A DNA stretch of 64,000 nucleotides from a virus: the IMG/VR virus record IMGVR_UViG_3300028392_002058, positions 32,649-96,648 of that record, one strand, 5' to 3'. A program made the translations under genes and the position numbers. Each line of letters starts with the position of its first letter. Within the stretch, counting starts at the first letter, position 1. A model generated the notes under the pieces. It had not been told where the DNA came from, made no database searches, and saw only the letters and a program-made list of their open reading frames with translations. Positions 6,049 through 60,167 of this stretch are shown here, in pieces.

Positions 6049-6091
6049 TACAAATGTGATCGTGATGCCAGTACTCTTCTGTCTTTTAACA

Positions 6092-41085: not shown

Positions 41086-41093
41086 TATTTATA
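41086..41093 (-). promoter_or_regulatory. Late-type promoter motif TATAAATA
   Basis: Minus strand TATAAATA overlaps the stop of the radical SAM gene and lies 21 bases from the nuclease ATG. Confidence 0.6.
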
Positions 41094-42255
41094 CTGTTGG
41101 ACCATTAGTTGTTCCTTTTGTGTATATTTTATCATGCGAACTCTTTTGACCACATACTTCAGCACAAAATAACATTTTACCATTTTCCACAGTATCTTTG
41201 TTCCAAGCTTCGTCGAAGAAGTTGTTGAATTTGGGGCCGGACAATATGTCAACCAGGCTGTGTTTTCTAAGGTCAAATTCATCTAATCCTGTTTTATCAA
41301 TTTTTTCATTGAATTGATATCTTGCATAACTGGTATTTTTTTGACCAAATGCGCCGCCAAGGTAACAGCAGGGCAACAAATGCCCGCTGGCCGATATAAA
41401 AATTTCCTGATGTTCTGGATATTCAAATGATTTACATTTGATTATAGATTCCTTGCCCAATTGTCTACTGTATTCGCTTAGTATCGGAACTGTTCCAACA
41501 ATAGAACTGATCTTAAATGTCTTATGCGCTTTGGGTATTATTTTTTCGCCTGCAAAGTCATGCGGCCAAATAGAATATTCGTAATCTCCATTTTTGTCAT
41601 GCACATTCAGTGCTCGTTGAATTCCCTCATTTTCGCCGAACCCCAGTGGAGTTTTAAGAATAAAAGTAAAGCCCAGTGTGTCGGCCAATGCTCGAGCTTC
41701 ATCAACTTGATGTTTATTGTGATCAAAAATCAAATACTCCCAAATACCATACCCACCTGCTTCGCTGTATGCTTTCATATTGGCCCAGACCTTGTTCCAC
41801 ACAACACCGCGTCGATAAATGTGATTGGTGTCTTCTAATCCGTCGACTCCAAACACCACTCCGCTGTTGGTGAATGCAAATTCTGGCTTGATATTGGGCT
41901 TGGGCAACAGTTGGGCAATCTTGGCCCAATGCTCGGTGCCACGCATGCCACCGTTGGTCCGCACCACCTGCTTTAAATTTTTATTGCCATGCACTTTAAA
42001 ATACAATAAAGTGTCGGGTAAGTCTTTGACTATGCCCGGATCACCTAAATTGCCACAATAGTTGATGTGTTCTATATTTTTAATTATTTCTGGAGAGAAA
42101 AATGTCCGCATGTCGTTGGTACTTAGATCAACCTGTTCAAAACCAGCTACAACTGGACCGCCGCTGTAGTTGCGACTGCATGCAGGACAGCTGGCATTGC
42201 ACCTGCTGGATAATTCTATCTGTACTCTGCGTATCTTTGTCAGGTCATATATCAT
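41089..42255 (-). CDS. Radical SAM/SPASM protein, last gene of the operon
   Basis: 388 aa. CX3CX2C at C19, C23, C26 (RCNASCPAC) near the N-terminus, and C-terminal cysteines (HLLPCCYLGGAFG, FCAEVCG) for an auxiliary cluster, the usual SPASM order. Different domain order from the eight paralogues upstream. GNLGDPG takes the place of the GGEP motif. Coupled to the hydroxylase by ATGA. Confidence 0.9.
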   Translation of the reverse strand: MIYDLTKIRRVQIELSSRCNASCPACSRNYSGGPVVAGFEQVDLSTNDMRTFFSPEIIKNIEHINYCGNLGDPGIVKDLPDTLLYFKVHGNKNLKQVVRTNGGMRGTEHWAKIAQLLPKPNIKPEFAFTNSGVVFGVDGLEDTNHIYRRGVVWNKVWANMKAYSEAGGYGIWEYLIFDHNKHQVDEARALADTLGFTFILKTPLGFGENEGIQRALNVHDKNGDYEYSIWPHDFAGEKIIPKAHKTFKISSIVGTVPILSEYSRQLGKESIIKCKSFEYPEHQEIFISASGHLLPCCYLGGAFGQKNTSYARYQFNEKIDKTGLDEFDLRKHSLVDILSGPKFNNFFDEAWNKDTVENGKMLFCAEVCGQKSSHDKIYTKGTTNGPTV

Positions 42256-42965
42256 TTAAGTGCGGCTCTCAGGCTGTCTGCTACTATTTTGTCAAATGTA
42301 GCGGAAGGTGCACCATGCGATATCATGTGTATCCTGGGCTCGGAACTGTTGTTCCATACACTATGTATGCGACCAACGTCTACTAGGCAAGCATTGCCCG
42401 AATCTTTAAAAGGGACATCACCATGACCTTTCATTCTAAAAACACACCCGTCTGGATTGTTTAATGCCACATTGATTGGGGATAAGAAATGTTCTGTCCT
42501 GTCTTGATGTGGTTCAATGTAGCCCTGCGGATCCAGCCACATGTATCGTAATCGCTGATAATTGTGGTTGGGAAATTCGTCTTTAAAGTATTTGGTAGTG
42601 ACAGGACAGCGTTCTGCAATTTCTGTCCATTTATATATAATTTCATTAGCATTACGGCCTGCATTTTCAGGGTAGGCAGTATAATAATCAGTCTTGTCCC
42701 AAGCTTCGCCGTGTAAGCAAATGCTTCTCCAGCCAGGACTGCCATAACTTCTATGTGCAATATACAAGTCCTCTAATGCCGCGGCTTCTGCCAGCATATC
42801 TGCATAAGGTGCGCCGGGCAATTCCAATGGCAGGTATGGCCAGCCGCTTTTGTATATCAGCCACTGCACCAGTTCCCTGTCGGAATCGAATGCAGGAACT
42901 GCCTGTTCTTTAAAATTAAAAGTCCAGGGCGTGTCAGCAAAAAATTCAACAATCTGTTCATTCAT
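42252..42965 (-). CDS. Aspartyl/asparaginyl beta-hydroxylase-like 2OG oxygenase
   Basis: 237 aa from the ATG overlapping the previous gene's end; an upstream in-frame extension is unlikely. H153-Q-D155 (EPHQDRTEH), distal H201 (RIHSVWNN) and R211 (PRIHMISHG). This is the aspartyl/asparaginyl hydroxylase layout and suggests hydroxylation of a protein side chain. Part of the radical SAM operon. Confidence 0.85.
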   Translation of the reverse strand: MNEQIVEFFADTPWTFNFKEQAVPAFDSDRELVQWLIYKSGWPYLPLELPGAPYADMLAEAAALEDLYIAHRSYGSPGWRSICLHGEAWDKTDYYTAYPENAGRNANEIIYKWTEIAERCPVTTKYFKDEFPNHNYQRLRYMWLDPQGYIEPHQDRTEHFLSPINVALNNPDGCVFRMKGHGDVPFKDSGNACLVDVGRIHSVWNNSSEPRIHMISHGAPSATFDKIVADSLRAALK

Positions 42966-44409
42966 ATTGTATTTTACCATGTAATCGAGTTTGATATCCG
43001 CCGATGTGATCATATCCAACCATTTGTACACATACATTGTTGTCAACTACAGATTTTAGAAAGTCGTCCCAGCTGTCCTGTAATAAGCCTGGTGCAAAGT
43101 TTCTAATTGTCGCAGGAGTGTGGAAGCTGTTGCTGATCCAAATCATATTATTACCAGGATTTTGTTTCATGTCCGCAAGCATGGCCGAATATTCATTTAT
43201 TAAATTGGTTTTAATATACCCATGCTCCAGTGCCTTGTACTTGTTCCAAAACTTTAACCATTGTTGTTGGCCACCAAATAAATCAAGTGTATTTGCCCAT
43301 TCTTGTGGATACTGTTGTTGACGACCAGGCAGCCAAATTGGATCAAAGTTGGGATTTACTTGTCGGTACTGTTCTATGGCCTGCATATAATCAACACCGT
43401 CCCAGTTATCAACTAACCATTGGCGATAGTTTAATGCGTCTTGGCTGTAGTCAATGTACACTACTCGGGCCGTATCACAATCAACTTGGCTTAGCAACTG
43501 TAAAGGTTTAAAACCAGCGGCCACAGCATACAATGTGCCCAGTCGTGTCGTCGGAGAATACTTAATTCTTTCTAATTCCATGCTGTCGTTATTAAAAACA
43601 AATACTGCGCCTGTCACATTGGTAAAGTCTGTTTCTTTAAGATAATGGCATTGAGCATAAGTTGGACCAGTGGGTTCTACAGTAATTCCTTGCTCGCCAC
43701 CCAGTATGCGCTCAAACCTGTCGTCATCAATTTCTGGATATAGATATGACTTCTTTCTTCTAATATATTCATCAAAATTACCAACAGCACATTGATTTGT
43801 CAGGAAAGTATTAATCAAGTTCCAACCGGGCCCGACCGGGCCCGAGTATGTTTTGGCATTTGATTGTAAATTTGGTGGTCGCGGGCCACCCACAGGTGTC
43901 AGCCACAATGGGGTATAATCATCGTGTATGTTTTCATCGCTTCTGTTGTAATCTGCAATTTTAATATCGTGTACTGTGCCTTTGTCACCAAAGCGTGGAC
44001 AACCAAAATTGTTCCATATATGCAGATTTAAAAGAAAGCTTTGTGTGTGTAAATGGAAAAATCCCTCGGATTGGCCTTTAAAATATTTTTGGTCTTCTAA
44101 TAGATGTCCAACTAATCCATACTCATTTTCTTCTGCGAAATTCAATATGTTTGCGATCAGGTCATGATCGCTGGTGATATAACCAATGTTCATTAGGTAG
44201 ATATAATCGTAACCGGCGTCAAACGCTTGTGATATCAATGCATCAATGTTGTTGCCTTCTAGAATTGAATGCTTGTTTAGACCGCGCCTGTTCATTGTGA
44301 CACGAATATCAAAGGTAGAAATAGCTCTGACATGGTCTCTGTATGTTTTATTCTTGTGATCAAGTTGATCATACAATGCAAATGCCACTGTTTTCATTGA
44401 ATTTTCCAT
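42958..44409 (-). CDS. Glycosyltransferase-like plus methyltransferase-like two-domain protein
   Basis: 483 aa. First part: AFDAGYDYIYLMNIGYITSD then YGLVGHLLED and FFHLHTQSFLLNL, like GT-A glycosyltransferases seen in phages. Second part: LYAVAAGFKPLQLL then ARVVYIDYSQDALNYRQWL, like a Rossmann methyltransferase. Motif I is imperfect. It may decorate a glycan or protein in concert with the radical SAM enzymes. Family calls are by appearance only. Confidence 0.55.
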   Translation of the reverse strand: MENSMKTVAFALYDQLDHKNKTYRDHVRAISTFDIRVTMNRRGLNKHSILEGNNIDALISQAFDAGYDYIYLMNIGYITSDHDLIANILNFAEENEYGLVGHLLEDQKYFKGQSEGFFHLHTQSFLLNLHIWNNFGCPRFGDKGTVHDIKIADYNRSDENIHDDYTPLWLTPVGGPRPPNLQSNAKTYSGPVGPGWNLINTFLTNQCAVGNFDEYIRRKKSYLYPEIDDDRFERILGGEQGITVEPTGPTYAQCHYLKETDFTNVTGAVFVFNNDSMELERIKYSPTTRLGTLYAVAAGFKPLQLLSQVDCDTARVVYIDYSQDALNYRQWLVDNWDGVDYMQAIEQYRQVNPNFDPIWLPGRQQQYPQEWANTLDLFGGQQQWLKFWNKYKALEHGYIKTNLINEYSAMLADMKQNPGNNMIWISNSFHTPATIRNFAPGLLQDSWDDFLKSVVDNNVCVQMVGYDHIGGYQTRLHGKIQYE

Positions 44410-45320
44410 AATGTAATATTATCTAATACGATAGAGCTAATCCTGCTCTTGGTTAATTTTGGCCAATCGACTGTGTTAACTATCTTGCCCAAGGGCCAGC
44501 GATTCAGTTTCTTGGCACTGGCTTGATAGTCGGCCATGAACGCTGGATTGTCAATTATGCTGGCATATATCATGTGAGGATCAAACATGACATTCGGAGT
44601 CATAAAACTGTTGCCCCACACATCTGTTTCCAATAGGTCATCTTCGTCTAGCCAGGCCTTCATATGATCTTTGCCCTGTATATCTTCATTGATCCATACA
44701 TCATAGTGATATTCTTCAGTGGCCGGATCAAACGAGTCTGTGATACTTTCTGCGTGGCCGCTGGCCCACAACGCATTACTGCCTTCAAGTGCTCTAGCGT
44801 CGGCACAGAATGCGCTATACTGTTGTTTATCACCAATGGCTGTTCGGCGACTTAGTGTCGGGTATGTCATAAACTCTAAATCGTGTACATTCTGATTTAA
44901 TGCATGGAATCGTTCGAACATTTCATCTACTCTAACCTCTGCTGGTATTTTCATGCGACCGCTGTAGTATTCTGTTGCCACAGTGGTAAAGTGTCTATGC
45001 CATGTATTAAGATGTGCCTGTGTTAAATCGTTGGGTACTTCTAGTAAGTGTACCAAATCTGCAATTTCTTTAGCAAAGTCAATACCAAGATGAGTTTGTA
45101 AAAACACAAATGACTTATGTAAATCAGTTAGTAAAGGAATTGGATTGGCCTTGTACTGTTTGGCCATACCATGACTACTAAAATTCCACAATATGCTTGG
45201 CAATCTAGCGGCAGTACGAGTCAGGTATTGTTGCCATTCATTGACAAATTTATTATCTAATAATTCAACTTCAATTTGTTTTATTTCGCCCTGTGGTGCT
45301 GTGTATTTGTAAATTAACAT
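44394..45320 (-). CDS. Unknown operon protein
   Basis: 308 aa, no recognised fold. Aromatic and histidine-rich helices (HLNTWHRHFTTVATEYY) and a DPATEEYHYDVWINED acidic segment. Overlaps both neighbours by several bases, so it belongs to the operon. Possible substrate or scaffold; the sequence does not say. Confidence 0.6.
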   Translation of the reverse strand: MLIYKYTAPQGEIKQIEVELLDNKFVNEWQQYLTRTAARLPSILWNFSSHGMAKQYKANPIPLLTDLHKSFVFLQTHLGIDFAKEIADLVHLLEVPNDLTQAHLNTWHRHFTTVATEYYSGRMKIPAEVRVDEMFERFHALNQNVHDLEFMTYPTLSRRTAIGDKQQYSAFCADARALEGSNALWASGHAESITDSFDPATEEYHYDVWINEDIQGKDHMKAWLDEDDLLETDVWGNSFMTPNVMFDPHMIYASIIDNPAFMADYQASAKKLNRWPLGKIVNTVDWPKLTKSRISSIVLDNITLWKIQ

Positions 45321-45877
45321 ATTTCTCTTGATACCTGTACGAATGTAATAATGTGATTTCTTTGTTCTGTTACAGGTGGTACATTATGCCAACTGTTTGG
45401 CAGGTTTAACCAGAATGCGCCCGAACCAGCCTTTGATGGTGCTGTATAAATTGGCGTTGTATCATTACTGTTGGCATAAAAATGGGTAGGTGTAATTGTA
45501 TCAGTTATATGCACTACCCCAGATAACAATATTACAGGCTGGTCAATGTGCATTTGCTGTTGCCAGCCTGGATCATCTCTACATATTTGTGTTCCAAATG
45601 TAAGGTTACCAAGATACTGTTCATAGGGTTTAAATCTCATGTCATCTCTCATTGGTTGAATGATAAAATTAAACACTATATCTCTAAAGAGGCAACTAAC
45701 CTTGTAACCAACAGGATTCTTGTAATCCTCATAGTATCGTTTACCTGGATACATTTTATTGGTATGATGGTCTGGTTCTGTGTATACTAACTCTTCAAAC
45801 TTAATCTCCGGAAGGGCAACATCATGCACTTCCATGATTAGCAAATTAGGAAACTGATCAACTAATTTTGTTATCAT
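45314..45877 (-). CDS. 2OG-Fe(II) oxygenase-like protein
   Basis: 187 aa. H110-I-D112 (QMHIDQPV), distal H164 (NSWHNVPP) and R173 (EQRNHIITF). Short jelly-roll oxygenase. Overlaps the next gene by seven bases and the previous by four. It is the second hydroxylase of the operon. Confidence 0.75.
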   Translation of the reverse strand: MITKLVDQFPNLLIMEVHDVALPEIKFEELVYTEPDHHTNKMYPGKRYYEDYKNPVGYKVSCLFRDIVFNFIIQPMRDDMRFKPYEQYLGNLTFGTQICRDDPGWQQQMHIDQPVILLSGVVHITDTITPTHFYANSNDTTPIYTAPSKAGSGAFWLNLPNSWHNVPPVTEQRNHIITFVQVSREIC

Positions 45878-47127
45878 ACTTTGCCTATAAATTGTGCAAA
45901 GTTAACAGGCTTGTTTCTTCGCTGTGTGTACTGTTCAAAGAATGTATCGCTATCCTTACGCAATGCCGCTTGGTTATCTTTAATAAGCCCCGCATCTAAC
46001 ATTTTAATCAATCGTTCAGCGTACTCTACTTCAAATGGAAGTAAATCATTTTGAATCGTGGCATAGAAGGCAGTGTATTTTTTGATATAAAAGTCTCTGT
46101 CTGCTCTGCTTAAACAACCAAAGCCCTGGAAGTCTGGTTTGTCTACCATATTAATAGTGACAGCTGGTTTAATACGAGTGCGCTCTCGCATTTTAATGAT
46201 GTCAATATACATTCGATCCAGGGCTTGTAGGCTAATTGCGCTACAGGTTGTGCTGACTGTGGCCACGCTGACATTGCTGTTGCATAATAATTCCATATTA
46301 TGCAACCATTCATCGTAGACCATGCCTTCGCGAATAAACTCTGCCACAGCACCTGCACTTTCATTGCTGACATTGACACGCAGGTTGTTTAATCGCTTGG
46401 CTTTTTCTAAGAAGCGTTCAATTACCACGGGCTTTTGACAAAGGTTAGTGTGTACGACACATTCAATATTGGGATTTATTTCGGTCATCCGGTCAAACAG
46501 TTTGAATACTTCTTCGTGCATGAGTGGTTCACCACCACTGACACGAATACTTTCTAGTCCTGGAGCAACTGTTTCAAACCACTGCCAGAACAATGTCATA
46601 TCTGGGGGCGCAATCATTTCATCCAGTTCACTCAGATCCTTTTGATAGTGCTTGCGGTCGTCTGTGATGATTCCAGTGTATACACCTCGAGTTCGAATAT
46701 CATTGATCCAGCTGGTGCTGAACTGTGGACTGCAATAGCTACAGGCCAGGTTGCAGGTGTTTTGAAATGCCAACTCCAATGCTTTTGGTTTAAAGTTGTA
46801 AGCAGGATCAAAGTATTCCTCTGCTGTCAAGTGATCCGTAAATGCCAGGCTTTTGCGAGTACGATCACTGGTCAAGCCAAGATTCTCAAAATGCCAGCAA
46901 CTGTTGCATGCAGGCGGCTGTTCTCCGGCCAGCATACTCTGTTGGTGACTGCGTTTTTCTGGCGGATTGTAGAATGTGTCAACTGTGGTGCCAACCTGTA
47001 GGAATGGCGTATAATGACAGCTGGCTATCTTGCCTGAGTATACCCAGATACTTGCTTCGTGAAACTTGGCCAAGCAAAATGTTGGACTTGTTGCCTGACG
47101 AATTTTAAATAGTTTTTGCTCATTCAT
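45874..47127 (-). CDS. Radical SAM paralogue 8 of 8 (class A)
   Basis: 417 aa. N-terminal cysteine cluster: C18 (FCLAKF), C37 (SCHYTP), C74/C77 (ACNSCWHFE) with LTSDR; radical SAM CX3CX2C at C125, C129, C132 (CNLACSYCSP) followed by FSTSW; SGGEP further on. Class A means the sequence CxAK then SC-H-P and CxxCWxxE-SDR. Overlaps the oxygenase by four bases. Confidence 0.9.
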   Translation of the reverse strand: MNEQKLFKIRQATSPTFCLAKFHEASIWVYSGKIASCHYTPFLQVGTTVDTFYNPPEKRSHQQSMLAGEQPPACNSCWHFENLGLTSDRTRKSLAFTDHLTAEEYFDPAYNFKPKALELAFQNTCNLACSYCSPQFSTSWINDIRTRGVYTGIITDDRKHYQKDLSELDEMIAPPDMTLFWQWFETVAPGLESIRVSGGEPLMHEEVFKLFDRMTEINPNIECVVHTNLCQKPVVIERFLEKAKRLNNLRVNVSNESAGAVAEFIREGMVYDEWLHNMELLCNSNVSVATVSTTCSAISLQALDRMYIDIIKMRERTRIKPAVTINMVDKPDFQGFGCLSRADRDFYIKKYTAFYATIQNDLLPFEVEYAERLIKMLDAGLIKDNQAALRKDSDTFFEQYTQRRNKPVNFAQFIGKV

Positions 47128-48446
47128 TAGTAATCAAATTCGTCGTGTAGATCATGCTCGGTCATGTAGTCTCGCATATCAGCATGCTCTGGAAATGTTT
47201 TCCAAAAATCTTCTCCGCGAATTGTATCCAGCTTCTTGGTAATGCGACTAAAGTTCTTCAAACTGTCGTGCAGGTTTGTAATCTTATAAGTTTCAAGTGA
47301 GCGTACTTGCCACATAAACCCAATAGCTGTTTCGTACATGAACAGGGTTTGTTTGTTGCATCCTCGTTCCTGTAGCCATGTCATTTGTTCTCTAAAAAGC
47401 TTTTCAATTTGATGCTTCTTCCAGTCTGGAATATTCTTTAACGAGTAATAGCTTGGTCCATCTAGAACATTTAATAAGATGTTATCTGGGTGAATATAAC
47501 CCAGCTCTACCCATTCTCTGTGGAATTCAATCAGGTTGTGAGCGTTGGGCCAACTGAGCGTAAAGCCAATGTTGAATCTAACATGTGGCGCTTGTTCGCG
47601 CATTCGCAATCTGTTGGCCACAACATCCTTCCATACAGTACCGTGACGCCAGTATTCTGCTTTGGCATAACTGCCATCCAGACTGGCATTGACATTGATA
47701 TCCTTGAAGTTTTTCCAATATTCAATCACATCATGTTTGCCCAGGGTCAGTTTACTGAAGTTTGTATTGTATCTAATACCGCATTGCGAATTACCCAGCT
47801 CTACCAGCTTGTTCAGTGTTTCGTAGTGTTCTTTTTGCATCAATGGTTCGCCACCGGCAAAATAAATGCTTTTCATTGTGGGCAGATGCGGCATCATTTC
47901 TTCTAGTGCTTGTTCTTCTGTTTGCCCTGGAAACTGGAATTCATCATTGATTGATTCTTTGGTCTTCTTGTTGTACAGCTTGCGACTATCCACAATCCAA
48001 CTGGTGCTAAAGTGTGGACCACAACTGCGGCACCCTAGATTACATAGATTGTTAAAACGCACATCCATGTAGATCAACTTGTGTTCGTCTAGGCTACCAT
48101 CAGGATTGGTTGCGGCCACAATTGAGTGTACAGCTTGATTGTTCTTAAAGAAGTCATCGTTAAATTTATTTTTAAATTCAGCTTCCAATTCAACTCTGCT
48201 GTTGCAACGACCACAGTTGGCATCTTCTTCACCGTTTAGAAATTTCAGGCGCATGGTCCGCGTAGCGTCATTGTTCCAAATTTCTTTTAGTGTATTTTGT
48301 TTGAGACTGCCAATTTGTTCCTTGTGTTCGTATACACAGCAGGGCTTGACATCTCCAGGTGGTCCTACATATTGATGGATCCAAGGCAGGATACAGAAGG
48401 TTCTACTTTTCTTGGCCAATTCTAGCGGGTTAAATTCAGTGTTCAT
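47127..48446 (-). CDS. Radical SAM paralogue 7 of 8 (class B)
   Basis: 439 aa. N-terminal C18 (FCILPW), C36C37 (PCCVYE), C78/C81 (CGRCN); radical SAM C135, C139, C142 (CNLGCRSCGP) followed by FSTSW; AGGEP. The class B signature is CxxPW then CC then CxxC. It shares a base with the next gene and follows the only gap (20 bases) in the array, where an AATAAATA lies. Confidence 0.9.
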   Translation of the reverse strand: MNTEFNPLELAKKSRTFCILPWIHQYVGPPGDVKPCCVYEHKEQIGSLKQNTLKEIWNNDATRTMRLKFLNGEEDANCGRCNSRVELEAEFKNKFNDDFFKNNQAVHSIVAATNPDGSLDEHKLIYMDVRFNNLCNLGCRSCGPHFSTSWIVDSRKLYNKKTKESINDEFQFPGQTEEQALEEMMPHLPTMKSIYFAGGEPLMQKEHYETLNKLVELGNSQCGIRYNTNFSKLTLGKHDVIEYWKNFKDINVNASLDGSYAKAEYWRHGTVWKDVVANRLRMREQAPHVRFNIGFTLSWPNAHNLIEFHREWVELGYIHPDNILLNVLDGPSYYSLKNIPDWKKHQIEKLFREQMTWLQERGCNKQTLFMYETAIGFMWQVRSLETYKITNLHDSLKNFSRITKKLDTIRGEDFWKTFPEHADMRDYMTEHDLHDEFDY

Positions 48447-48451
48447 AGCGA

Positions 48452-48459
48452 TATTTATT
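48452..48459 (-). promoter_or_regulatory. Late-type promoter motif AATAAATA inside the operon
   Basis: Minus strand AATAAATA, then TCGCT, then the ATG at 48446. Sits in the sole intergenic gap of the radical SAM array and could start an internal transcript. Confidence 0.45.
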
Positions 48460-48466
48460 CAACAGG

Positions 48467-49582
48467 TTATGTCTGGTATTCGTCAATCAATCTTTGTATA
48501 TGTTCATTATGGTTGCGAACAGTCACTAGCTTTTTCAATTCGTTAATGCCTTGACTCAACAGAGCTGTGTCAATATTGGTTGTAAATTGTAAAGATTCTT
48601 TATATAGATCCAACAGTCTTTGAAACTGTTGATTAGGTGCCAACTGTGGCAACAATGACAACAAGCTGTCTCGTCGAGACTCTGGCAGTAAATTAACTGC
48701 ATAATATTCTGGCCTATCTAGTTTTGTCAAATGTAAACTGTCCGCATCAATATAATTTAACAGCAACCAATTGTAATAGGGCAGGAATGAATCAGCATTT
48801 AGCCAGGACAAAGTAAAATTAAACCCGTAATTTAGATTGTTGTGCAACTGTGTCAACGCCCGGAAGTAATCAACATTGACTTTCATTTTGTCAAAGTCAG
48901 CGCCGTAACGCATTGAATCAAATGCCTCGTCAACTCCATCTACACTGAATTGAATCAATACTCGCTTGAAGTTTTTTAATTCAGATTCAATCACTGTCAG
49001 TGAGGTAGTACCATTTGTTGTTATAACCAGTTCAGTTATATCGGCATGGTCACTGGCGGCCAGCCAGGCAATGAACTTCAACACCACTGGATTGATCAAT
49101 GGTTCACCACCAAAAATTTCTAAGCGTAACTTATTAAAACTTGAGTTTGATATAGTATCTTCAATCATTGCAAGCTTGCTACTGCCCTGATCCAGCATGG
49201 TGTTAAAGTATTTCTTGGTAAGCCCACGAGTATTGAACTTGTCCAACTTTTCCCACTCGCTTATGTGCTGACTACTATAATAGGGATTACAAGTGATACA
49301 TTTGATATTGCAAAGATTGTCAAAGCATACACCAATGACCAACTCATTTACATCTTTAAACAACTGACGATGGCTCCATGTTGCGCCTGCACTTTCTTGA
49401 TCAATACAATGTCGACAGCCGGCGGCAATATCAATTTCACTCAATTTACTTTGATATTCGCTGTAGGTACTGGCACTGACTCCGGGCTTGAACCAACAGC
49501 AAGGCATGTATGGCTTGGTTTCATTTGATATGTACAGGCCGTGCCGATGCGCCAGACAGTTTTTAAAAGGTGTTAAATCCAT
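48467..49582 (-). CDS. Radical SAM paralogue 6 of 8 (class B, shortest)
   Basis: 371 aa. C9 (NCLAHR), C28C29 (PCCWFK), C56/C59 (CRHC), radical SAM C91, C95, C98 (CNIKCITCNP), then FGGEP. The class B pattern is kept but the first motif is CLAHR rather than CxxPW, and the insert is shorter. Starts ten bases inside the next gene. Confidence 0.88.
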   Translation of the reverse strand: MDLTPFKNCLAHRHGLYISNETKPYMPCCWFKPGVSASTYSEYQSKLSEIDIAAGCRHCIDQESAGATWSHRQLFKDVNELVIGVCFDNLCNIKCITCNPYYSSQHISEWEKLDKFNTRGLTKKYFNTMLDQGSSKLAMIEDTISNSSFNKLRLEIFGGEPLINPVVLKFIAWLAASDHADITELVITTNGTTSLTVIESELKNFKRVLIQFSVDGVDEAFDSMRYGADFDKMKVNVDYFRALTQLHNNLNYGFNFTLSWLNADSFLPYYNWLLLNYIDADSLHLTKLDRPEYYAVNLLPESRRDSLLSLLPQLAPNQQFQRLLDLYKESLQFTTNIDTALLSQGINELKKLVTVRNHNEHIQRLIDEYQT

Positions 49583-50850
49583 CCTGCCAATTCCGGAAAG
49601 GTCGCGGCAAAGTTTAAGCTTCTGCGTTTATCATACTCTGCTGTGAATCGAGCAAATTGATCTCGGCGATGATCGCGCTCAATCACATTCATTGCAGTGT
49701 GTCTAGACTTCCAGAACTGATAGACCATTTCCCATGTTTCTCTTTCAACACTCACAGTAGGATTGGTCAGCACAAAGTCATTGACTGTATCAAAGTATTG
49801 ATCGCAACTGTCTGGCAAGATGCGTAGGTCAAACTGCTTGGGGTCAACAAGACGACAGCAATTGAACATGATATCAATGCCGTCGGCTCGCATGTCAATT
49901 ACTTTCTGTACAAACACACTGAAGTTAAACACACTCATCAGGCCAAATGTGACCATTACACGAATAGGCACTCCAAATGTTGTGCTGACCTTGCGTACTG
50001 TTGCTTCCCACTTGACAATGTCAAGTCCGTCACGAATGTATTCTGCTTGTGGTCCCCATGTGTCCATGCTGGTGTAAACTTCGAGTCCTTTAATAGTCTT
50101 TGCTTCAAGCAATGCTGTTGCTTTGGTAAAGAATAGATCCAAGTTCTTTTCAGGTACACACAGGTTGGTGTTGACAACCAGTGTCAGCTCAGGATTATGA
50201 TTCTCTGCCACATAATCCAACAGCTTCATGAAGTTACGGGTGGCCAAAGGCTCTCCACCTGTTATGCGTAGATAACGCAGGCCAGAATATATTTCAGGTA
50301 ACCACTTCCAAAATGCATCAATGTAAGGATTGTTATCCTCGGGTATCATATCGTGCATCTTGTCTCGATGCACAGTTGGATCTTCAATTGGGTATGAACC
50401 GTACTTGCTTATTTCGTGTTCCCATGTTGAGCTTTGCCCAGGACTGCAATAGCTACAGGCAAAGTTGCAGGTGTTGGCAAATGAAATTTCCAAGTGTGCT
50501 GGACCAACAGGCTGGTCAGCTGGCGCAGATAATATCTCTTGTCTGCGTTCAATAGCCCAGGTTTCATTGGTAAAACGCTTACGATCACTGACTGCTGTGG
50601 CATCAATGTCTTCCATGTCCCAACAATAGCTACACTCTTTGGGACGGATGCCGTTCAGCATCATTTCTCGCTGTTTGATCTTGTGCTTGCTGTTGTGCAA
50701 TGCACCTGGGTTCGTGTTTACATCCGCCAAGTCCCAACGGTGTATCGGTGGATGATAGCAGGAGTGATTCTCACCCATGCCAAAGTGCATGGTGACCATC
50801 AGCCACTTGGCCGCACAAAAGCTGTGTTCAATGTTAATTGGTATCTGCAT
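49573..50850 (-). CDS. Radical SAM paralogue 5 of 8 (class A)
   Basis: 425 aa. C12 (FCAAKW), C31 (SCYHPP), C73/C76 (CSYCWDMED) with SDR, radical SAM C128, C132, C135 (CNFACSYCSP) followed by STWEHEI, then TGGEP. Same class as 45874, 53406 and 54928. Confidence 0.9.
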   Translation of the reverse strand: MQIPINIEHSFCAAKWLMVTMHFGMGENHSCYHPPIHRWDLADVNTNPGALHNSKHKIKQREMMLNGIRPKECSYCWDMEDIDATAVSDRKRFTNETWAIERRQEILSAPADQPVGPAHLEISFANTCNFACSYCSPGQSSTWEHEISKYGSYPIEDPTVHRDKMHDMIPEDNNPYIDAFWKWLPEIYSGLRYLRITGGEPLATRNFMKLLDYVAENHNPELTLVVNTNLCVPEKNLDLFFTKATALLEAKTIKGLEVYTSMDTWGPQAEYIRDGLDIVKWEATVRKVSTTFGVPIRVMVTFGLMSVFNFSVFVQKVIDMRADGIDIMFNCCRLVDPKQFDLRILPDSCDQYFDTVNDFVLTNPTVSVERETWEMVYQFWKSRHTAMNVIERDHRRDQFARFTAEYDKRRSLNFAATFPELAGWI

Positions 50851-52042
50851 TTATAATTTCTTCTAGTTCAGGCACATAAGTTTTATAGTTTAACTCACGA
50901 CTCTTATCCAACGCTGTAACAAACTCCCTGGCCTTGACAGTCAATTCAGGAATCCAAGGTCTGTCAAGCTTGGCATACAATTCATTTCTTTTGGCATCAT
51001 CAAACTTGTATTCATACTTGGATTTTAATTGTGCTTTAAGTGCTGTTGGAACAGCCTGTAAACTGAGATAGTCTGGATACAACACATAGTTATGAGTTGT
51101 GTTTTTATCAAATGAATATCGCATCCAGTCATCCAGTTTGTCTAGATTAAACACATTGAATATGCTGACAGTTTGTGTCACATGCCAGTCCACAGTGTGA
51201 ATTGCATCCAATTTCTTGATGCTGTTGACTGTGTCAACCCATACACTGGGCCAACGAATGTAATAATTTCTAGCACCGTAGTCGTCGACACTACAGTTGA
51301 CAGTGACCCGTTTAAAGTGTTTCCATAAGTCAGCAAGTCTGTCTGGAATATCCATCATGTTAAGACTGTACACCAAGTGTACCTGTTGTGCTTGCCCTGT
51401 GGCTATCAGCTTTTCAAGGTAACCAAAGTGTGCTTTTATCAGTGTTGGTTCACCACCGTTGATGTAAATCTCTTCTACATCTGTGCTCAATGTGGCCAGC
51501 TCAGAATAAAACTCTGGTCGGTCATGCCATTTGAAGTTTTCCATTGGTCGCAATGTAAACCAAGGCAGATCCTTGGCAATCTTGACTTCATCTCCGTACC
51601 ACTTGCTACTGCTGAAACTGTTGCAGGTCACGCAGGCATTGTTGCATACATTGCCAAGTCTCAGCTCAACATAACGATAGTTTGGCTTGGTCAATCGTGC
51701 TGTTTGTTCCAGCTCTGGTACAATATGTGCCCAGCGTTCATTTTCGTACATGCGCTTGCTGACCAGGCCAGCGGCCTCATCCTGCCAGCAACCTTCACAT
51801 TCAACAGGTTCCTTGCCATCAATCATGTCTTGCCGTACACGAACAAAGTTGTCGCTGTTGGCAATGGTCAAGATGTTGGTATTGTCAAAGGTCTGTAATT
51901 GTGTTGTGCGTGGCTTCATTGCCCAACTGACTGCATCAGTGTGATTGCTACGACAGCATAGACTAACGCCGCCATTGGGATGGCTGGCCAGATGCATCCA
52001 GGGTAACACGCATCTTGTGTCTTTCATAGACTCTCCCACCAA
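50834..52042 (-). CDS. Radical SAM paralogue 4 of 8 (class B)
   Basis: 402 aa. C11 (CVLPW), C29C30 (LCCRSN), C82/C85 (CEGCWQDE), radical SAM C133, C137, C140 (CNNACVTCNS) with SSSKW, then NGGEP. Overlaps its neighbours by 17-19 bases. Confidence 0.9.
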   Translation of the reverse strand: MVGESMKDTRCVLPWMHLASHPNGGVSLCCRSNHTDAVSWAMKPRTTQLQTFDNTNILTIANSDNFVRVRQDMIDGKEPVECEGCWQDEAAGLVSKRMYENERWAHIVPELEQTARLTKPNYRYVELRLGNVCNNACVTCNSFSSSKWYGDEVKIAKDLPWFTLRPMENFKWHDRPEFYSELATLSTDVEEIYINGGEPTLIKAHFGYLEKLIATGQAQQVHLVYSLNMMDIPDRLADLWKHFKRVTVNCSVDDYGARNYYIRWPSVWVDTVNSIKKLDAIHTVDWHVTQTVSIFNVFNLDKLDDWMRYSFDKNTTHNYVLYPDYLSLQAVPTALKAQLKSKYEYKFDDAKRNELYAKLDRPWIPELTVKAREFVTALDKSRELNYKTYVPELEEIINADTN

Positions 52043-53409
52043 GCCAGCAGTTCTGGATCTGCAGAATAGATTGTGGCCATGGTTGTTTTATCTTTGCGGA
52101 TTGTTTCCAACCGCTTGACCCAATTCATTCCGTTGCGGGCCGCTGACTTATAAGTTTCTGGAAAGGCTTCTTCATGTGTTTGTCTACTATCACGCATGGA
52201 CTCTAAGGTAGAGATTACACTCCATTGCTTTGGTCCTGCTAAAGGTCGCATGTAAGCAACAAGTTCCTCAATGTGACGATTTAAAATATGTCTGGGCCAG
52301 CTCATTGGTGTCCACATGATATCTGCATGGAACGCAAATGTAATCTTTGTGATGATTTCAACATCTAATTCCAAGCTTAGTTCAAATAGATCTTTGAGAG
52401 AGAACATGCCCGGTGCTGTGATGGTCAAATCCAGTTTCATGCGCTCTCGACCGCCAGGCAAGCTCACCCCTTCTTTAAAGTTGGCCAGCCACTCGTTCCA
52501 CTTGATGCCTGTACGAATATATTCTACAATTTCACCTGTGCCATCTATGCTGGCACACATCATCCAGTCTTTGAATTGCGGCAAGTAATCAAACAGATTC
52601 TTTTTACCAAACACCACACGACTTAGATTGCTGTTGTAGCGCATGTAACAATCTTTTGCACTGCCATTGCGAAGCATTTCTTCAAGCGTCCACCAATGTA
52701 TATCATACATCAATGGCTCGCCACCTACCCAATACATTTCTTCAATGATACCACGCTGTACTGCATCTCGAAATTCAGGTTCTACCACACGAGCTTGGAA
52801 GTCTTGCATGGCAGACTTGATTTCAGGAACCATAAAGGGTTGGTCTTTGGGTGTCCATAGGTCATGCTGTTTCTTTTCAACTTCCCAACTACTGCTCAAT
52901 TGTTCTCCACACATGCGGCATTTGAAATTGCATAGGTTACTGAACCTGTAGTCAAAGCTGACAGGTTCCATTGTGGTATGGCCTGTTTCATCTGTTGCAT
53001 CAAACGCCTGTTGAATCTGTTCGCGAAATAGATTACCTGTAAACCAACCCTTGTAACTGCCTTCCATTAGTAAATTATGATTGCACACATCACATTGTGG
53101 AATTTCTTCACCAGCCATCAGCTTGACCCGAATATCTTTCATGTAGTCGCTGTTCCAGTGTTCCTTTAAACTGACTGGCTGGTAATCTGACAATGCTGTC
53201 TTGCTTTCAGTCACTGCTCCGTAGGCCTTGTCATTGCTACTGTCAATGTATTGCTTCTGGAAGCTGTGCTCTTCTCTACTGGCACAACAGAGTCTGCGCT
53301 CACTTTGCGGACTGATGTAAGTGTGGCGCCAAGGTGCCATACAGAAATAAGGGTTAGGATTGTCCTTGGCTGGCTTACCTGGTTCCCAAATTGGTATTAC
53401 TCGTTTCAT
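52024..53409 (-). CDS. Radical SAM paralogue 3 of 8 (class B)
   Basis: 461 aa. C23 (FCMAPW), C41C42 (LCCASR), C106/C109 (CDVCN), radical SAM C160, C164, C167 (CNFKCRMCGE) with LSSSW, then VGGEP. Coupled to paralogue 2 by a four-base overlap. Confidence 0.9.
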   Translation of the reverse strand: MKRVIPIWEPGKPAKDNPNPYFCMAPWRHTYISPQSERRLCCASREEHSFQKQYIDSSNDKAYGAVTESKTALSDYQPVSLKEHWNSDYMKDIRVKLMAGEEIPQCDVCNHNLLMEGSYKGWFTGNLFREQIQQAFDATDETGHTTMEPVSFDYRFSNLCNFKCRMCGEQLSSSWEVEKKQHDLWTPKDQPFMVPEIKSAMQDFQARVVEPEFRDAVQRGIIEEMYWVGGEPLMYDIHWWTLEEMLRNGSAKDCYMRYNSNLSRVVFGKKNLFDYLPQFKDWMMCASIDGTGEIVEYIRTGIKWNEWLANFKEGVSLPGGRERMKLDLTITAPGMFSLKDLFELSLELDVEIITKITFAFHADIMWTPMSWPRHILNRHIEELVAYMRPLAGPKQWSVISTLESMRDSRQTHEEAFPETYKSAARNGMNWVKRLETIRKDKTTMATIYSADPELLAWWESL

Positions 53410-54944
53410 TGTAAGTCCGGATTGAAAAATTCTTCCTTGCTGGGGTCTTCGGGCGGATGGTCTGGAATATGTCCAGTTTCATCGCTGTATGTTCCGCTTA
53501 GGATTTCTTCTCTTGACGGAGTTGGTGTATCAATGCTGTCATACCAATCAACAAACTCCTGTGGAAATGTTGCACGGAAGTCCTTGCCTCTACGCACATC
53601 ATATTGTGTGTAGAAGTTTTTAAAGTCCAAGTGCTGTTGACCCATATCCTTGACATTCTTGTGCGGTGTCTTGATGACATCAAGATAGTCAATCAGTCGT
53701 TGTGTTTGTTCACGCTCAATTGGAGTCATGATAGGCCAACCATGTGGGCCAGTTCCCATTTGTACTCGTTCATCCTGGGCAATTATATTATCCAACCATG
53801 CTTGTAACTTGTCGCGATACTTTTGTCTAATGCTGGTTGGCAACATGGCGCAACTCTGGAAGCTGGGAAAACGCAGAATATTCAAACTCATTGTGGGATA
53901 TACAGTTTTATGCTCACGCTTGAATTCCAGTATCTCATCCATGAATTCGGTGATACTGGCAAGACACAAACTATTGATGGTCATCATCATGTGTGTCTTT
54001 TTAATATTGCCTTCAGTGTGCAAGCGATGCAAATTGTCTTTCCATTTGCTGTAGACCATACCATCACGAATGTATTCGCTGTGTGCGCCCACACTTTCAT
54101 TGCTGGTATAAACTTCCAGGTGCGGAACAAACTTACTCAACTCAATAAACTTGTCCATCAAGTCATCTTTGGGCACCAGGTTACTGTTGATGGCATAACG
54201 CAATACACCGCCGTCGGCTCGTTTGGTTGCTCGTTCTTGATTGTCTTTGAACCATTGCATCAGTTTCCAAACGCCCGGAGCCATCAATGGCTCGCCACCA
54301 GTGATTCGAATCTCTTCTAAGTTGTCGGCTAGCCCTTCATCCCACCAGCGCCAAAACGCTTTGATGTAAGGATTGGTTTCGTCTGCAATTGGAATAGCAT
54401 GGTCAGCCGCATTGATAAAGTGGCTACGGGCATCACCATCAATGTTACGATATGGGCCAAACTTTTTAATGTCTTTGACCCAACTGGTACTAAAGCTGGG
54501 GTTGCAATAACTGCAAGAAAAATTGCAAGTACGGTCAAACGAAATTTCCAATGTCTTTAACATTGTATCGTGTTGCCAATGTGTGGTAGCGGCCGCAATG
54601 ATGTCTTTGTCCGAGAACACCGCAGTTTTGTACACACGATCCGATATGCTGTTGCGACCCAAGTCTTCAATCTTCCAGCAGTACTCACATTCTTGTGGAC
54701 GAGTACCTTCCTGCATCATCTTACGCATGAGTTTCTTGTGCGGTGTATTGTGAATGGCAGTGGGATTGGCGTCGAGTTCACTTGCATCAATTTGATGTCC
54801 AAGTGGATGGTGGCAACTGGTTGTTTGTCCATTGCCCAACCAAATTGTGGCATTGAGCCATTTGGCGGCACAGAAGCTGTCGCTAGTGCTGTCAACCATC
54901 CGAATTTTGTATTCGGCAAAGGATTCATTATGTTTCTTTGGCAT
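53406..54944 (-). CDS. Radical SAM paralogue 2 of 8 (class A)
   Basis: 512 aa. C25 (FCAAKW), C44 (SCHHPL), C86/C89 (CEYCWKIED) with SDR, radical SAM C140, C144, C147 (CNFSCSYCNP) with FSTSW, then TGGEP. Acidic proline-rich C-terminal tail (ETGHIPDHPPEDPSKEE) not shared by the others. Confidence 0.9.
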   Translation of the reverse strand: MPKKHNESFAEYKIRMVDSTSDSFCAAKWLNATIWLGNGQTTSCHHPLGHQIDASELDANPTAIHNTPHKKLMRKMMQEGTRPQECEYCWKIEDLGRNSISDRVYKTAVFSDKDIIAAATTHWQHDTMLKTLEISFDRTCNFSCSYCNPSFSTSWVKDIKKFGPYRNIDGDARSHFINAADHAIPIADETNPYIKAFWRWWDEGLADNLEEIRITGGEPLMAPGVWKLMQWFKDNQERATKRADGGVLRYAINSNLVPKDDLMDKFIELSKFVPHLEVYTSNESVGAHSEYIRDGMVYSKWKDNLHRLHTEGNIKKTHMMMTINSLCLASITEFMDEILEFKREHKTVYPTMSLNILRFPSFQSCAMLPTSIRQKYRDKLQAWLDNIIAQDERVQMGTGPHGWPIMTPIEREQTQRLIDYLDVIKTPHKNVKDMGQQHLDFKNFYTQYDVRRGKDFRATFPQEFVDWYDSIDTPTPSREEILSGTYSDETGHIPDHPPEDPSKEEFFNPDLQ

Positions 54945-56586
54945 CGTCTATTCTCATTTGTAACAACTTACATTCATTGTAGTAGGAGTTCATCTCCGGA
55001 AAAACTTCTAAGAAGGCAGTATCTCTGCGTCTATCATACTCATTTATGTATTGATAAAATTGTAATCTATTCGTTTGAACAGCGGCAGGGTCTTTGCCTT
55101 CTTTAATTATAGCTAGATTTCTTTCAAGTTTCAATATCTCATGTGGCTTGAAACCTTCAAATGTTTCTCTGTAATCTTCTTGCTGTGCATTGCTACGCAT
55201 AAACTCCAAGCAATCTTCAATGGTTGCAATCAAGGTTGGCGTTGCATTTTGTGGATCAAACCAGTTGGGGTATTTTAGCAATGGTATGTCTAAAAATATT
55301 CTTTGGAACTTCTTTTGGAAATACTTCTTGTGTTCAATGCCATGTTCTTTTTCGTGCTCTGTTGGTTCTGGAGCAATTTCAAACTCAGTTTGATTCCGGC
55401 CGCCGAATTCTACTCGCAAATCTAATATCATTTGCAACCAACTTTTTAAACTTGGAATTGACAGTATGTTAAAGGTGTTGATGAAACTGACAGTGGTGTA
55501 CTTAGTTTCAGCTAAGAACTTTCTAGTGTTGGACATTAATCTTGCATAGTCTAAACCAGTACGCATATATTCTGCTTGCTGACCTACTCCGTCCAAGCTG
55601 ATGTATAACCAGAAATGTTTAAAGCCCTTGTCCACATACCAATGATTGCCACTGAACTTGTTGAAGTTTTCAGTATCTTCATAAGTGCGTATGACTTCAA
55701 TGGCCTGTACTTTGCTAATAAACTTGTCAAATAACTTTTGATCCGGCGGACACATGTTGCTGGTAATGCTTAGTTCTAATTGTCCATGTGGATTCTCATT
55801 CACATAGTCCAACACCTTAAAGGTATTCCGATCCATCAATGGTTCGCCGCCAGTCATACGAAATACTCGTAGTGTACGATAAATGTCTGGCCACCATTTC
55901 CAAAATGCTGTCACATAAGGATTATCTTTGACAGCAACTTCTAGCGGCATGTATCCTGAAACTTTTAAATTGCGTAGATTGTTATGATCAACCTTGTTTT
56001 TGCCCGGCAAGTCAAAGTTGTAAGGTCCATGCTGTTTGATTTCTTCTTCCCATGCTGTACTGATATGAGGACTACAGTACATGCATTTGAAATTACAAGC
56101 CTGATTAAAATTCACTTCGACATATCGTGGAACAATATCGAAATCGGCCTCCTTTAGAACTACATTGCGAAAGTCAGGGGCGGCCCAGTCTTCGCTGGAC
56201 TTGTAATGTCTATCACTAAGGTGTCCTTGTGGGCCACCACCAGGTGCATCTTCCACACGCCAACAGTAACTACAACCTTCTGGCCGCTTGCCAGTCAACA
56301 TTAGTTCTCGTTCTTGTTTTTTGAACTTGGTGTTATGCAATGCGCTGGGATTTTCTTTGAGCTCTAGTAGTGGAATAGCATGCGGAGGCGGATGATAACA
56401 ACTTTGTGTGGTACCGTTGGCCAGATTGATACTGACTTGTAACCACTTGGCCAGACACATTGTTGGACTAATTTTGTCCAGGTTGTCTCGCATGTTCTCT
56501 GCCTTTTGAAAATACTCAGTATAACCAAAGTCTTTTCTCTTAGGCGGCTCTTTTACTTGCTTGGAAATTTTGTCAAAGAAATTCAT
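54928..56586 (-). CDS. Radical SAM paralogue 1 of 8 (class A, first and largest)
   Basis: 552 aa from this ATG (a GTG six bases upstream is possible). C44 (MCLAKW), C63 (SCYHPP), C105/C108 (CSYCWRVED) with LSDR, radical SAM C164, C168, C171 (CNFKCMYCSP) with ISTAW, then TGGEP. Starts the 15.5-kb operon directly after TATAAGTA and a terminator. Confidence 0.9.
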   Translation of the reverse strand: MNFFDKISKQVKEPPKRKDFGYTEYFQKAENMRDNLDKISPTMCLAKWLQVSINLANGTTQSCYHPPPHAIPLLELKENPSALHNTKFKKQERELMLTGKRPEGCSYCWRVEDAPGGGPQGHLSDRHYKSSEDWAAPDFRNVVLKEADFDIVPRYVEVNFNQACNFKCMYCSPHISTAWEEEIKQHGPYNFDLPGKNKVDHNNLRNLKVSGYMPLEVAVKDNPYVTAFWKWWPDIYRTLRVFRMTGGEPLMDRNTFKVLDYVNENPHGQLELSITSNMCPPDQKLFDKFISKVQAIEVIRTYEDTENFNKFSGNHWYVDKGFKHFWLYISLDGVGQQAEYMRTGLDYARLMSNTRKFLAETKYTTVSFINTFNILSIPSLKSWLQMILDLRVEFGGRNQTEFEIAPEPTEHEKEHGIEHKKYFQKKFQRIFLDIPLLKYPNWFDPQNATPTLIATIEDCLEFMRSNAQQEDYRETFEGFKPHEILKLERNLAIIKEGKDPAAVQTNRLQFYQYINEYDRRRDTAFLEVFPEMNSYYNECKLLQMRIDDAKET

Positions 56587-56592
56587 TAACAC

Positions 56593-56600
56593 TACTTATA
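56593..56600 (-). promoter_or_regulatory. Late-type promoter motif TATAAGTA for the radical SAM operon
   Basis: Minus strand TATAAGTA six bases from the ATG at 56586, right after the terminator at 56607-56628. No TTGACA at -35. Confidence 0.55.
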
Positions 56601-56606
56601 AAAAAC

Positions 56607-56628
56607 AAAAGGCCACGAATGGCCTTTT
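56607..56628 (-). terminator. Intrinsic terminator
   Basis: 9-bp stem AAAAGGCCA / TGGCCTTTT with a UUCG loop on the minus strand, then TTTTGTTTTTT. Ends the unit containing the DUF3307 gene. Confidence 0.9.
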
Positions 56629-56644
56629 GAATTGATGTAACTGA

Positions 56645-57004
56645 TTATACTGATCTTACAAATATTGCAACAATGATTAGGTATGTTGCACTATGAGCAA
56701 GTTGGTCAAGGCCAAACTCGGCCCAGTACCGTGAGGTAGTATTGTCTTTGATACCATAATTCATTTTTGCCCAATCAATATGATAATGAAGTACAAAATC
56801 AATGATTGCCAAAAACAATGCAAACACCATACCCGATACTGCAAATACTACAAAGGTACCAAGGCCGTGGTATGCAGAATGCAATAGCCCATGCTTGGCT
56901 CCATAGGTGCCTTTGTCTTGCATCATCTGTTGGGTTTGCCAAACAAAATCGCATAACCAATGCTTGATAAAAAGCATTAGCAATGCGGCTTCAAATAATA
57001 ACAT
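56645..57004 (-). CDS. DUF3307-like membrane protein
   Basis: 119 aa with three or four membrane helices. The family pattern IKHWLCDFVWQTQQMMQDKG then GLLHSAYHGLGT, HYHIDWAKMNYG and GLDQLAHSATYLI is clear. Membrane protein of unknown role, common in phages. Confidence 0.85.
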   Translation of the reverse strand: MLLFEAALLMLFIKHWLCDFVWQTQQMMQDKGTYGAKHGLLHSAYHGLGTFVVFAVSGMVFALFLAIIDFVLHYHIDWAKMNYGIKDNTTSRYWAEFGLDQLAHSATYLIIVAIFVRSV

Positions 57005-57005
57005 G

Positions 57006-57170
57006 TTATTTCTCTCTAAGATCGATTATTAGTACCTTGTCATAGTGGCCTTCTTCGGCTTCTATAATTGCGTCTGCTTCAAACTCATTGTCACACAATT
57101 CAGTTCTAGATACTATTAAGCCATCGGCTGTTTCTTTATAAAATTGTATTTCAACTCTAGGATTCATCAT
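57006..57170 (-). CDS. 54-aa hypothetical protein
   Basis: Two ATGs in a row at the start overlap the upstream stop region (ATG ATG AAT). Beta-alpha-beta look (RVEIQFYKETADGLIVS, then an acidic helix). Family unknown. Confidence 0.6.
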   Translation of the reverse strand: MMNPRVEIQFYKETADGLIVSRTELCDNEFEADAIIEAEEGHYDKVLIIDLREK

Positions 57171-57393
57171 TATTCTCAATGTCATTGAGCCAGGTGTCAA
57201 CCCGCTCTTCGGCCTCTTGTTGTGTCAAGGCCGGCACATCAAACTCCATTGGGTAGCCTACATTGTGTCGAACATCAAATGGAATACGACCTGCAGAAAA
57301 AGGAAACCTATCCAAGTTACGAAATACTGTAAACTCTTGCAAGTTCTTGGCTCTTGTAATTAGATTTTCAGAGATTGATTTAGCGGTTTCCAT
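57157..57393 (-). CDS. Hypothetical phage protein
   Basis: 78 aa; central FSAGRIPFDVRHNVGYPMEF and C-terminal acidic helix. Overlaps its neighbour by 14 bases. No domain recognised. Confidence 0.6.
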   Translation of the reverse strand: METAKSISENLITRAKNLQEFTVFRNLDRFPFSAGRIPFDVRHNVGYPMEFDVPALTQQEAEERVDTWLNDIENNDES

Positions 57394-57401
57394 TGTATTC
57401 C

Positions 57402-57602
57402 TTATGCCATCTTGTCTACATTCTGTCCTGCACGATTCATCTGTCGATTCATTTCAATTCGCTTGCGCTCATTTTCTACTTGGTTTTCTTTGACACGCTG
57501 AGCTTCTAACCTGAGTTCTTCATGCCGCTGATCTAATTTTTTAAGTTGCATTTGATCATAGATTCTACTGGCATCTTGTGCGGCACGATTGACTGCTTCC
57601 AT
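57402..57602 (-). CDS. Short coiled-coil protein
   Basis: 66 aa, nearly all charged heptads (LKKLDQRHEELRLEAQRVKE) with no cysteine or proline; a coiled-coil helix. Ends one base before the peroxiredoxin. Function unknown. Confidence 0.65.
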   Translation of the reverse strand: MEAVNRAAQDASRIYDQMQLKKLDQRHEELRLEAQRVKENQVENERKRIEMNRQMNRAGQNVDKMA

Positions 57603-57603
57603 G

Positions 57604-58140: not shown

Positions 58141-58141
58141 A

Positions 58142-59603: not shown

Positions 59604-59604
59604 A

Positions 59605-60158: not shown

Positions 60159-60167
60159 CTTGTTCTC

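Follow-up and report, generated by a model that had tools for sequence, protein, structure and literature searches.

T4-like phages that carry many radical S-adenosylmethionine (rSAM) genes have been described before. The Campylobacter phages CP220 and CPt10 possess 11-12 such genes, five of which lie in an exchangeable cluster with sugar-transferase-like genes and an amidinotransferase gene (PMC2853527). The host-recognition clusters of the pelagimyophages, also T4-like, contain tail-fibre and glycosyltransferase genes and differ from one another by rSAM cassettes that are gained or lost (PMC7029224), and 12 rSAM genes are given for the T4-like marine genome TARA_ERS488813_N000010 in the passage that deals with it (PMC5332604). 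In this study, we analyzed a 64,000-nucleotide stretch of viral DNA (referred to as the window), corresponding to bases 32649-96648 of the 96,648-bp virus record IMGVR_UViG_3300028392_002058, which is itself a fragment (96.6 kb). Between positions 45874 and 56592 of the window, on the minus strand, eight tandem rSAM genes occupy about 11 kb. As judged by sequence comparison, this array is shown to be made up of ancient, non-redundant orthologous groups, each under purifying selection and with both predicted iron-sulphur sites intact, and we tentatively propose that it edits a glycan or an adhesin involved in host recognition.

These precedents lower the novelty of a high gene number. The original prediction for this DNA had called the number of tandem rSAM paralogues unusual, which was overstated, as published phages have 11 or 12 (PMC2853527, PMC5332604) and single viral records in our comparison have up to 19 twitch rSAM genes. 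What is new here is an array that is both ordered and ancient, is built from a single twitch family and occurs in many uncultured phages; also new are its displacement in the window lineage and two kinds of gene fusion, with a k66-like and with an aminotransferase-like domain, described below. For the pelagimyophages, only “some gene cassettes” are mentioned, and their freshwater genomes lack rSAM genes (PMC7029224), whereas the window array has eight ordered members and lies away from fibre genes. The examined CP220 rSAM proteins are 249-367 amino acids (aa) long, give no N-terminal twitch match and are not orthologous to the array proteins; not being of the twitch type, the CP220 module was rejected as a homologue of the array. 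The passage on the marine genome interprets its rSAM genes by way of Fe-S assembly genes and gives neither their order nor their family type (PMC5332604).

The eight genes, named P1 to P8 in the direction of transcription (Table 1), follow each other head to tail; read 5' to 3' along the minus strand, their junctions measure −17, −4, −19, −17, −10, +20 and −1 bp. These values agree exactly with the overlaps of 1-19 bases and the single 20-base gap noted originally, and the tight, operon-like packing stands. The start of P1 is ambiguous (GTG at 56592 or ATG at 56586). Four N-terminal cysteines, the CX3CX2C motif (CNxxCxxC) and GGEP are invariant in all eight proteins, so that the rSAM identity first read from the latter two motifs holds, with further support from the NCBIfam family NF033640 (N-terminal twitch rSAM, N_Twi_rSAM), which matches all eight. 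Seven matches lie above the curated cut-off of 170 bits (242-356 bits), and only P6 (148 bits) falls below it. The arrangement in this family is the same as in the array, an N-terminal four-cysteine twitch followed by the CX3CX2C/GGEP core; however, the family has a name without a function, and it is the locus that is characterized by an ordered multi-gene array. P3 gives a Pfam SPASM match at its N terminus (23.0 bits). A search of the whole record for twitch rSAM genes returned the eight array members and a weak ninth, the downstream gene k2 (about 40 bits). In the NCBIfam scan, named rSAM families all scored far under their own cut-offs (no more than 25 of 180 bits for viperin and 38 of 284 bits for MoaA). 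When the array profile was compared with PDB sequences, the matches included cytosylglucuronate decarboxylase and, weakly, the twitch part of BtrN, two enzymes with sugar-like substrates. BtrN, a twitch rSAM dehydrogenase of aminoglycoside synthesis, would offer plausible chemistry on cyclitol or sugar rings, but its twitch is C-terminal whereas that of the array proteins is N-terminal, and the homology is distant.

Paralogues within the array are only 19-26% identical (compared with P7), while each member has its own orthologue in other viral contigs, with identities of up to 99%. The core order P1-P2-P3-P4-P5-(P6)-P7-P8 recurs in these contigs, with accessory members inserted. Dereplication at 95% nucleotide identity of P1 left 27 loci with at least four array members, so the gene order, which the original prediction had suggested looking for in other phages, is present in about 27 dereplicated viral contigs. 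Because independent contigs carry the same order, chance and an assembly artefact, the latter named beforehand as a possible refutation, are excluded. Recent tandem duplication is ruled out by the low paralogue identity and the separate orthologous groups. The other refutation foreseen, that these might be unrelated single-copy enzymes with known separate roles, was half right: the groups are separate and non-redundant, but no known roles attach to them.

The nearest records (L016 and L030; L numbers denote the records and contigs compared) are 92-99% identical to the window across the array and carry an additional twitch rSAM gene between P5 and P6 that is absent from the window (L030 17021-18196; 30% identical to P4). 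Farther records are about 35-89% identical, with the minimum at P6, and single members are missing in some. Orthologues of P1 occur in Bdellovibrionota genomes as well as in about 100 viral contigs. When the window was compared with its near relatives, the ratio of nonsynonymous to synonymous substitution rates (dN/dS) ranged from 0.027 to 0.106 across all eight genes. All seven cluster cysteines are kept in 375 of 383 related proteins, and CX3CX2C in 383 of 383. With intact cysteines, low dN/dS and orthologues of its own, each gene therefore looks, at the level of sequence, like one for a working, separately maintained enzyme. Gene order and overlap suggest that the eight enzymes act together. 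In a quick tree, the P groups were separate and several of them included Bdellovibrionota sequences; most shallow forks were well supported, the deep forks were weak, and long branches were flagged. A tblastn search for relatives in cultured phages returned only the Vibrio phages K566/K567 and QD01, plus one short single-cell virus contig. To judge by their sample types, the uncultured phages presumably come from lakes, a provenance that calls for caution.

In the relatives, the array usually follows tail-fibre-type genes and a gene designated k0. Tail-fibre families occur in the locus of 17 of the 27 dereplicated arrays, and k0 lies within two genes upstream of P1 in 17 of 27; the window's own record lacks this arrangement. 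One tail protein near an array has a Peptidase_G2 autoproteolytic domain. The k0 protein has an invariant DxD motif and a confident structure model (pLDDT, the predicted local distance difference test score, of 86), and the PDB matches of this model are nearly all glycosyltransferases (GT) of the GT-A type or sugar nucleotidyltransferases; the capsid glycosyltransferase of PBCV-1 is among them. As the E-values are modest (7e-4 and up) and the global TM-scores low, the model supports a GT-A fold for k0, but not an exact function. Downstream of the fully read arrays are k2-type rSAM genes, genes for putative SGNH proteins, a carbamoyltransferase gene (Pfam, 4e-47) and a gene for a repeat protein of 1300-2250 aa. 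Genes inserted in arrays include those for a class I methyltransferase and a short-chain dehydrogenase, and loci with fewer rSAM genes contain epimerase-, SGNH-, carbamoyltransferase- and glycosyltransferase-like genes (partly recognized by eye). In the cultured Vibrio phage K566, twitch rSAM genes are interleaved with genes for two GT8 proteins and one GT4-like protein. A T4-type Gp23 major capsid protein is encoded in 14 of 26 related records and not in the fragmentary 96.6-kb window record; by this sequence marker, those relatives whose sequence extends to the capsid genes are T4-like.

Two observations concern unusual proteins of these loci. The 99-kb viral record L100, with 19 twitch rSAM matches, contains two fusion genes (1717-4158 and 4148-8401), one joining rSAM to an aminotransferase-like domain (a weak match, 0.0024) and the other joining a k66-like domain to two rSAM domains. 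The large protein of L097 (12463-17160) and nine related open reading frames (919-2248 aa; no Pfam family) are located after the carbamoyltransferase gene in array phages, and the one that was read consists of many FDFSWHPD...PPYIYxFGxQW units with a k0-like C-terminal part.

The reading we favour, to which we give somewhat less than an even chance, is that the array belongs to the host-recognition region, from which it has been displaced in the window's phage, and that its enzymes form a line that edits a glycan or an adhesin. The eight enzymes would act in succession, each step being a C-H abstraction (epimerisation, dehydrogenation, deoxygenation or similar), on a common sugar-containing substrate, either a glycan on the tail fibres or virion, or a host surface polysaccharide; the edited substrate would change adsorption or exclude rival phages, and the member count would correspond to the count of different steps or residues. 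In the window lineage, the array would have moved out of the tail-fibre region to a site where it is followed by k65, k66, the beta-hydroxylase and the SPASM rSAM genes. That the substrate is shared, that it is a glycan and that adsorption or exclusion is affected are each suggested rather than observed. This reading is put forward because: the arrays of relatives adjoin tail-fibre genes, k0 and carbamoyltransferase genes, with GT8/GT4 interleaving in K566; order, cluster cysteines and distinct P groups are conserved at low dN/dS; and the aminotransferase fusion, the matches to BtrN and cytosylglucuronate decarboxylase, and the rSAM cassettes of pelagimyophages (PMC7029224) point the same way. 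The original guess at the target (a glycan, a host factor or some part of the virion) is supported as a possibility.

Several points weigh against it. The window operon has no confirmed glycosyltransferase and its array is not beside tail-fibre genes; no array member has a close homologue with a known substrate; the k1 and SGNH-like genes gave no Pfam match, the SGNH, epimerase and k1 labels having been assigned by eye; and most Bdellovibrionota homologues are lone genes in differing surroundings, with no sugar genes nearby. Moreover, the relatives share ancestry, so that synteny is not fully independent evidence, and the downstream beta-hydroxylase and SPASM rSAM would also suit protein modification. 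A bolder and more doubtful form of the proposal is an ordered, multi-step radical “assembly line” for a phage surface structure, in which the enzymes each act on their own position or unit of a single glycan or adhesin, and the chemistry that the host sees shifts as single enzymes are gained or lost at accessory positions. If true, phages would have in this a new mode of diversifying their surface. For a phage, 11 kb is an unexpected outlay on eight different radical enzymes that are sensitive to oxygen; that many phages keep their order and their metal sites, at low dN/dS, implies that the product matters. Should a tail-fibre or surface glycan be the substrate, the array would represent both a means by which phages alter host recognition and a large, untapped reservoir of radical carbohydrate chemistry. 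As K566 is cultured, the idea is directly testable.

The chief rival, which we consider rather unlikely, is direct editing of a structural protein: residues of a tail-fibre or other structural polypeptide would be epimerised, cross-linked or otherwise altered, the neighbouring Asp/Asn hydroxylase would add beta-hydroxylation, and the “precursor” would be the full-size structural protein. Peptides are often the substrates of SPASM/twitch rSAM enzymes, the array proteins show weak similarity in the profile scan to maturases of ribosomally synthesized and post-translationally modified peptides (RiPPs), an Asp/Asn hydroxylase and a SPASM rSAM are encoded in the window operon, and the arrays of relatives come directly after tail-fibre genes. 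On the other hand, the recurrent companions are GT-fold proteins and a carbamoyltransferase, the window array is away from fibre genes, and no RiPP recognition element (RRE) or PqqD-like peptide-recognition domain appeared in Pfam or NCBIfam scans at E-values up to 1.

The same null result bears on a classical RiPP pathway. The original prediction that no precursor-peptide gene fits between the rSAM genes holds across 31 loci, including the window: among 170 directly adjacent rSAM pairs, 137 overlap, 30 have gaps of 0-30 bp, three have gaps of 31-100 bp, and none has a gap above 100 bp, while in 17 further pairs with an intervening gene that gene encodes at least 172 aa. A RiPP system with a clustered precursor is ruled out by these gap sizes and by the lack of any small gene inside the arrays. 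That the host, or another part of the phage genome, encodes the precursor is very improbable: eight rSAM enzymes and hydroxylases would fit a heavily modified peptide, and an incomplete genome leaves room for a distant precursor, but the arrays have neither small gene nor RRE, and the auxiliary-cluster domain is N-terminal rather than C-terminal.

The location of the arrays also bears on two other explanations. rSAM and 2-oxoglutarate (2OG)-dependent enzymes are known in phage DNA hypermodification, and the array could thus hypermodify phage DNA or tRNA; this is the least probable of the explanations, as the usual array site is the tail-fibre/host-recognition region, base-modification and nucleotide-synthesis genes were not seen within arrays, and known nucleic-acid rSAM families gave no similarity above cut-off. 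Alternatively, the array might provide the host with auxiliary metabolism (for example, a small-molecule antibiotic-like or aminoglycoside-like product) or with a cofactor, unrelated to host recognition. The window phage has many metabolic genes, the pairing of a carbamoyltransferase with twitch rSAM enzymes resembles aminoglycoside chemistry, and boosted host metabolism was proposed for the Campylobacter phages by their authors (PMC2853527). Yet the arrays of relatives are linked to tail fibres, and the number of members is free to change at accessory positions, in contrast to a fixed cofactor pathway; we regard this explanation as unlikely.

Cellular relatives were sought among GTDB species, each represented by one genome. 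The P1 homologues there are about 29-44% identical (one partial match, 49%) and belong mostly to metagenome-assembled genomes (MAGs) of Bdellovibrionota, including long contigs; in a few of them, several rSAM genes lie together. The remaining matches are on short contigs with the tail-fibre/k0/P1/P2 order, which look like mis-binned phages. The distribution points to old gene exchange between array phages and Bdellovibrionota, by which a host is not shown. Gene context in Bdellovibrionota was tried as a functional guide and, the genes being mostly solitary, gave no clear hint; titles and abstracts on Bdellovibrio and rSAM contained nothing relevant. Clustered twitch rSAM genes, up to eight in 20 kb, were observed on five Bdellovibrionota-type MAG contigs (L116, L147, L148, L160 and L177).

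Table 1. Array genes, downstream genes and flanking signal in the window.
Feature	Coordinates	Strand	Evidence
Terminator-like hairpin + T run, just upstream of P1	56606..56629	-	Sequence pattern only
P1, first rSAM, N-terminal twitch + radical SAM core, 553 aa	54928..56592	-	NF033640 290 bits; dN/dS 0.049
P2, twitch rSAM, 512 aa	53406..54944	-	NF033640 299 bits; 60-98% to colinear orthologues; dN/dS 0.027
P3, twitch rSAM, 461 aa	52024..53409	-	NF033640 299 bits; 66-99% to orthologues; dN/dS 0.047
P4, twitch rSAM, 402 aa	50834..52042	-	NF033640 326 bits
P5, twitch rSAM, 425 aa	49573..50850	-	NF033640 284 bits; 72-98% to orthologues
P6, most divergent twitch rSAM, 371 aa	48467..49582	-	NF033640 148 bits; four twitch Cys present; dN/dS 0.106
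P7, twitch rSAM, 439 aa	47127..48446	-	NF033640 356 bits; Pfam SPASM 7.8e-12 at residues 18-82
P8, last array rSAM, 417 aa	45874..47127	-	NF033640 242 bits; Pfam Radical_SAM 2e-11
Small possible 2OG-type protein, 187 aa	45314..45877	-	HxD...H by eye
k65, uncharacterised, 308 aa	44394..45320	-	No Pfam/PHROG family above cut-off
k66, uncharacterised, 483 aa	42958..44409	-	No family match
Aspartyl/asparaginyl beta-hydroxylase-family 2OG protein	42252..43046	-	Pfam PF05118, 3.7e-12
k2, rSAM with C-terminal SPASM-like region	41089..42255	-	phrog_21308 9e-16; SPASM 21.3 bits vs cut-off 21.5

Downstream of the array, the order k65, k66, Asp/Asn beta-hydroxylase and SPASM rSAM is shared by the window and L016/L030, and the order k65-k66-hydroxylase is also found in L018/L114; k65 comes after the array in L018, L113, L114 and L029 as well as in the window lineage. 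Of the two 2OG oxygenases proposed originally, the hydroxylase-family protein is confirmed, whereas the small protein after P8 has no match in Pfam, PHROGs or PDB sequences; its gene is missing at the corresponding place in L016/L030 and L108. The glycosyltransferase/methyltransferase-like label once given to k66 is not upheld, as it matches no family and its structure model was unusable (pLDDT 39; three sequences). The homologue fused to two twitch rSAM domains in L100 (E = 2e-25) ties k66 to the twitch rSAM system. Beyond the close phages, relatives of k66 and k65 were found at only two and four loci, respectively. The SPASM-type assignment of k2 is borne out by its C-terminal region, a hair under the Pfam cut-off; k2 fails the NF033640 cut-off, its best family being the PHROG in Table 1, and it is kept in 36 of the compared loci.

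Upstream, the hairpin separates the array from a DUF3307 gene, with TATAAGTA between the hairpin and P1. A single operon promoter, as had been claimed, could not be named, promoter-like sites being at chance level (55 found versus 51 +/- 8 expected), and the T4-late motif TATAAATA was not enriched in the scan.

Across 41089-60500, the synonymous rate (dS) between the window and L030/L108 is uneven by gene (0.28 for P3, 0.88 for P7, saturated for k66), and such gene-to-gene jumps are a sign of patchwork recombination. The block also gains or loses single genes, such as the extra rSAM gene in L016/L030 and the small 2OG-type gene in the window.

Elsewhere in the window, metabolic genes encode a beta-keto acid cleavage enzyme (BKACE, 6e-95; 15720-16580), a Rieske ring-hydroxylase-like protein (18435-19313), a TauD-type oxygenase (20876-21748) and a redoxin (peroxiredoxin; 57604-58161). 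Two rSAM genes of other types are in the same record, at 26861-27823 and at L010 6215-7108 (Pfam 2e-13 and 8e-4, respectively), and relatives of the former adjoin twitch rSAM genes in the Bdellovibrionia contigs L147/L148. L010, part of the window phage's own record, also encodes proteins that by eye resemble TRAP (DctP) and tricarboxylate (TctC) periplasmic solute-binding proteins (3719-4663 and 5224-6369). In the record L011, which has several 2OG hydroxylase-like genes, a 1240-aa collagen-like (GXY-repeat) protein, probably a tail fibre (5154-8876), could be a target of hydroxylation.

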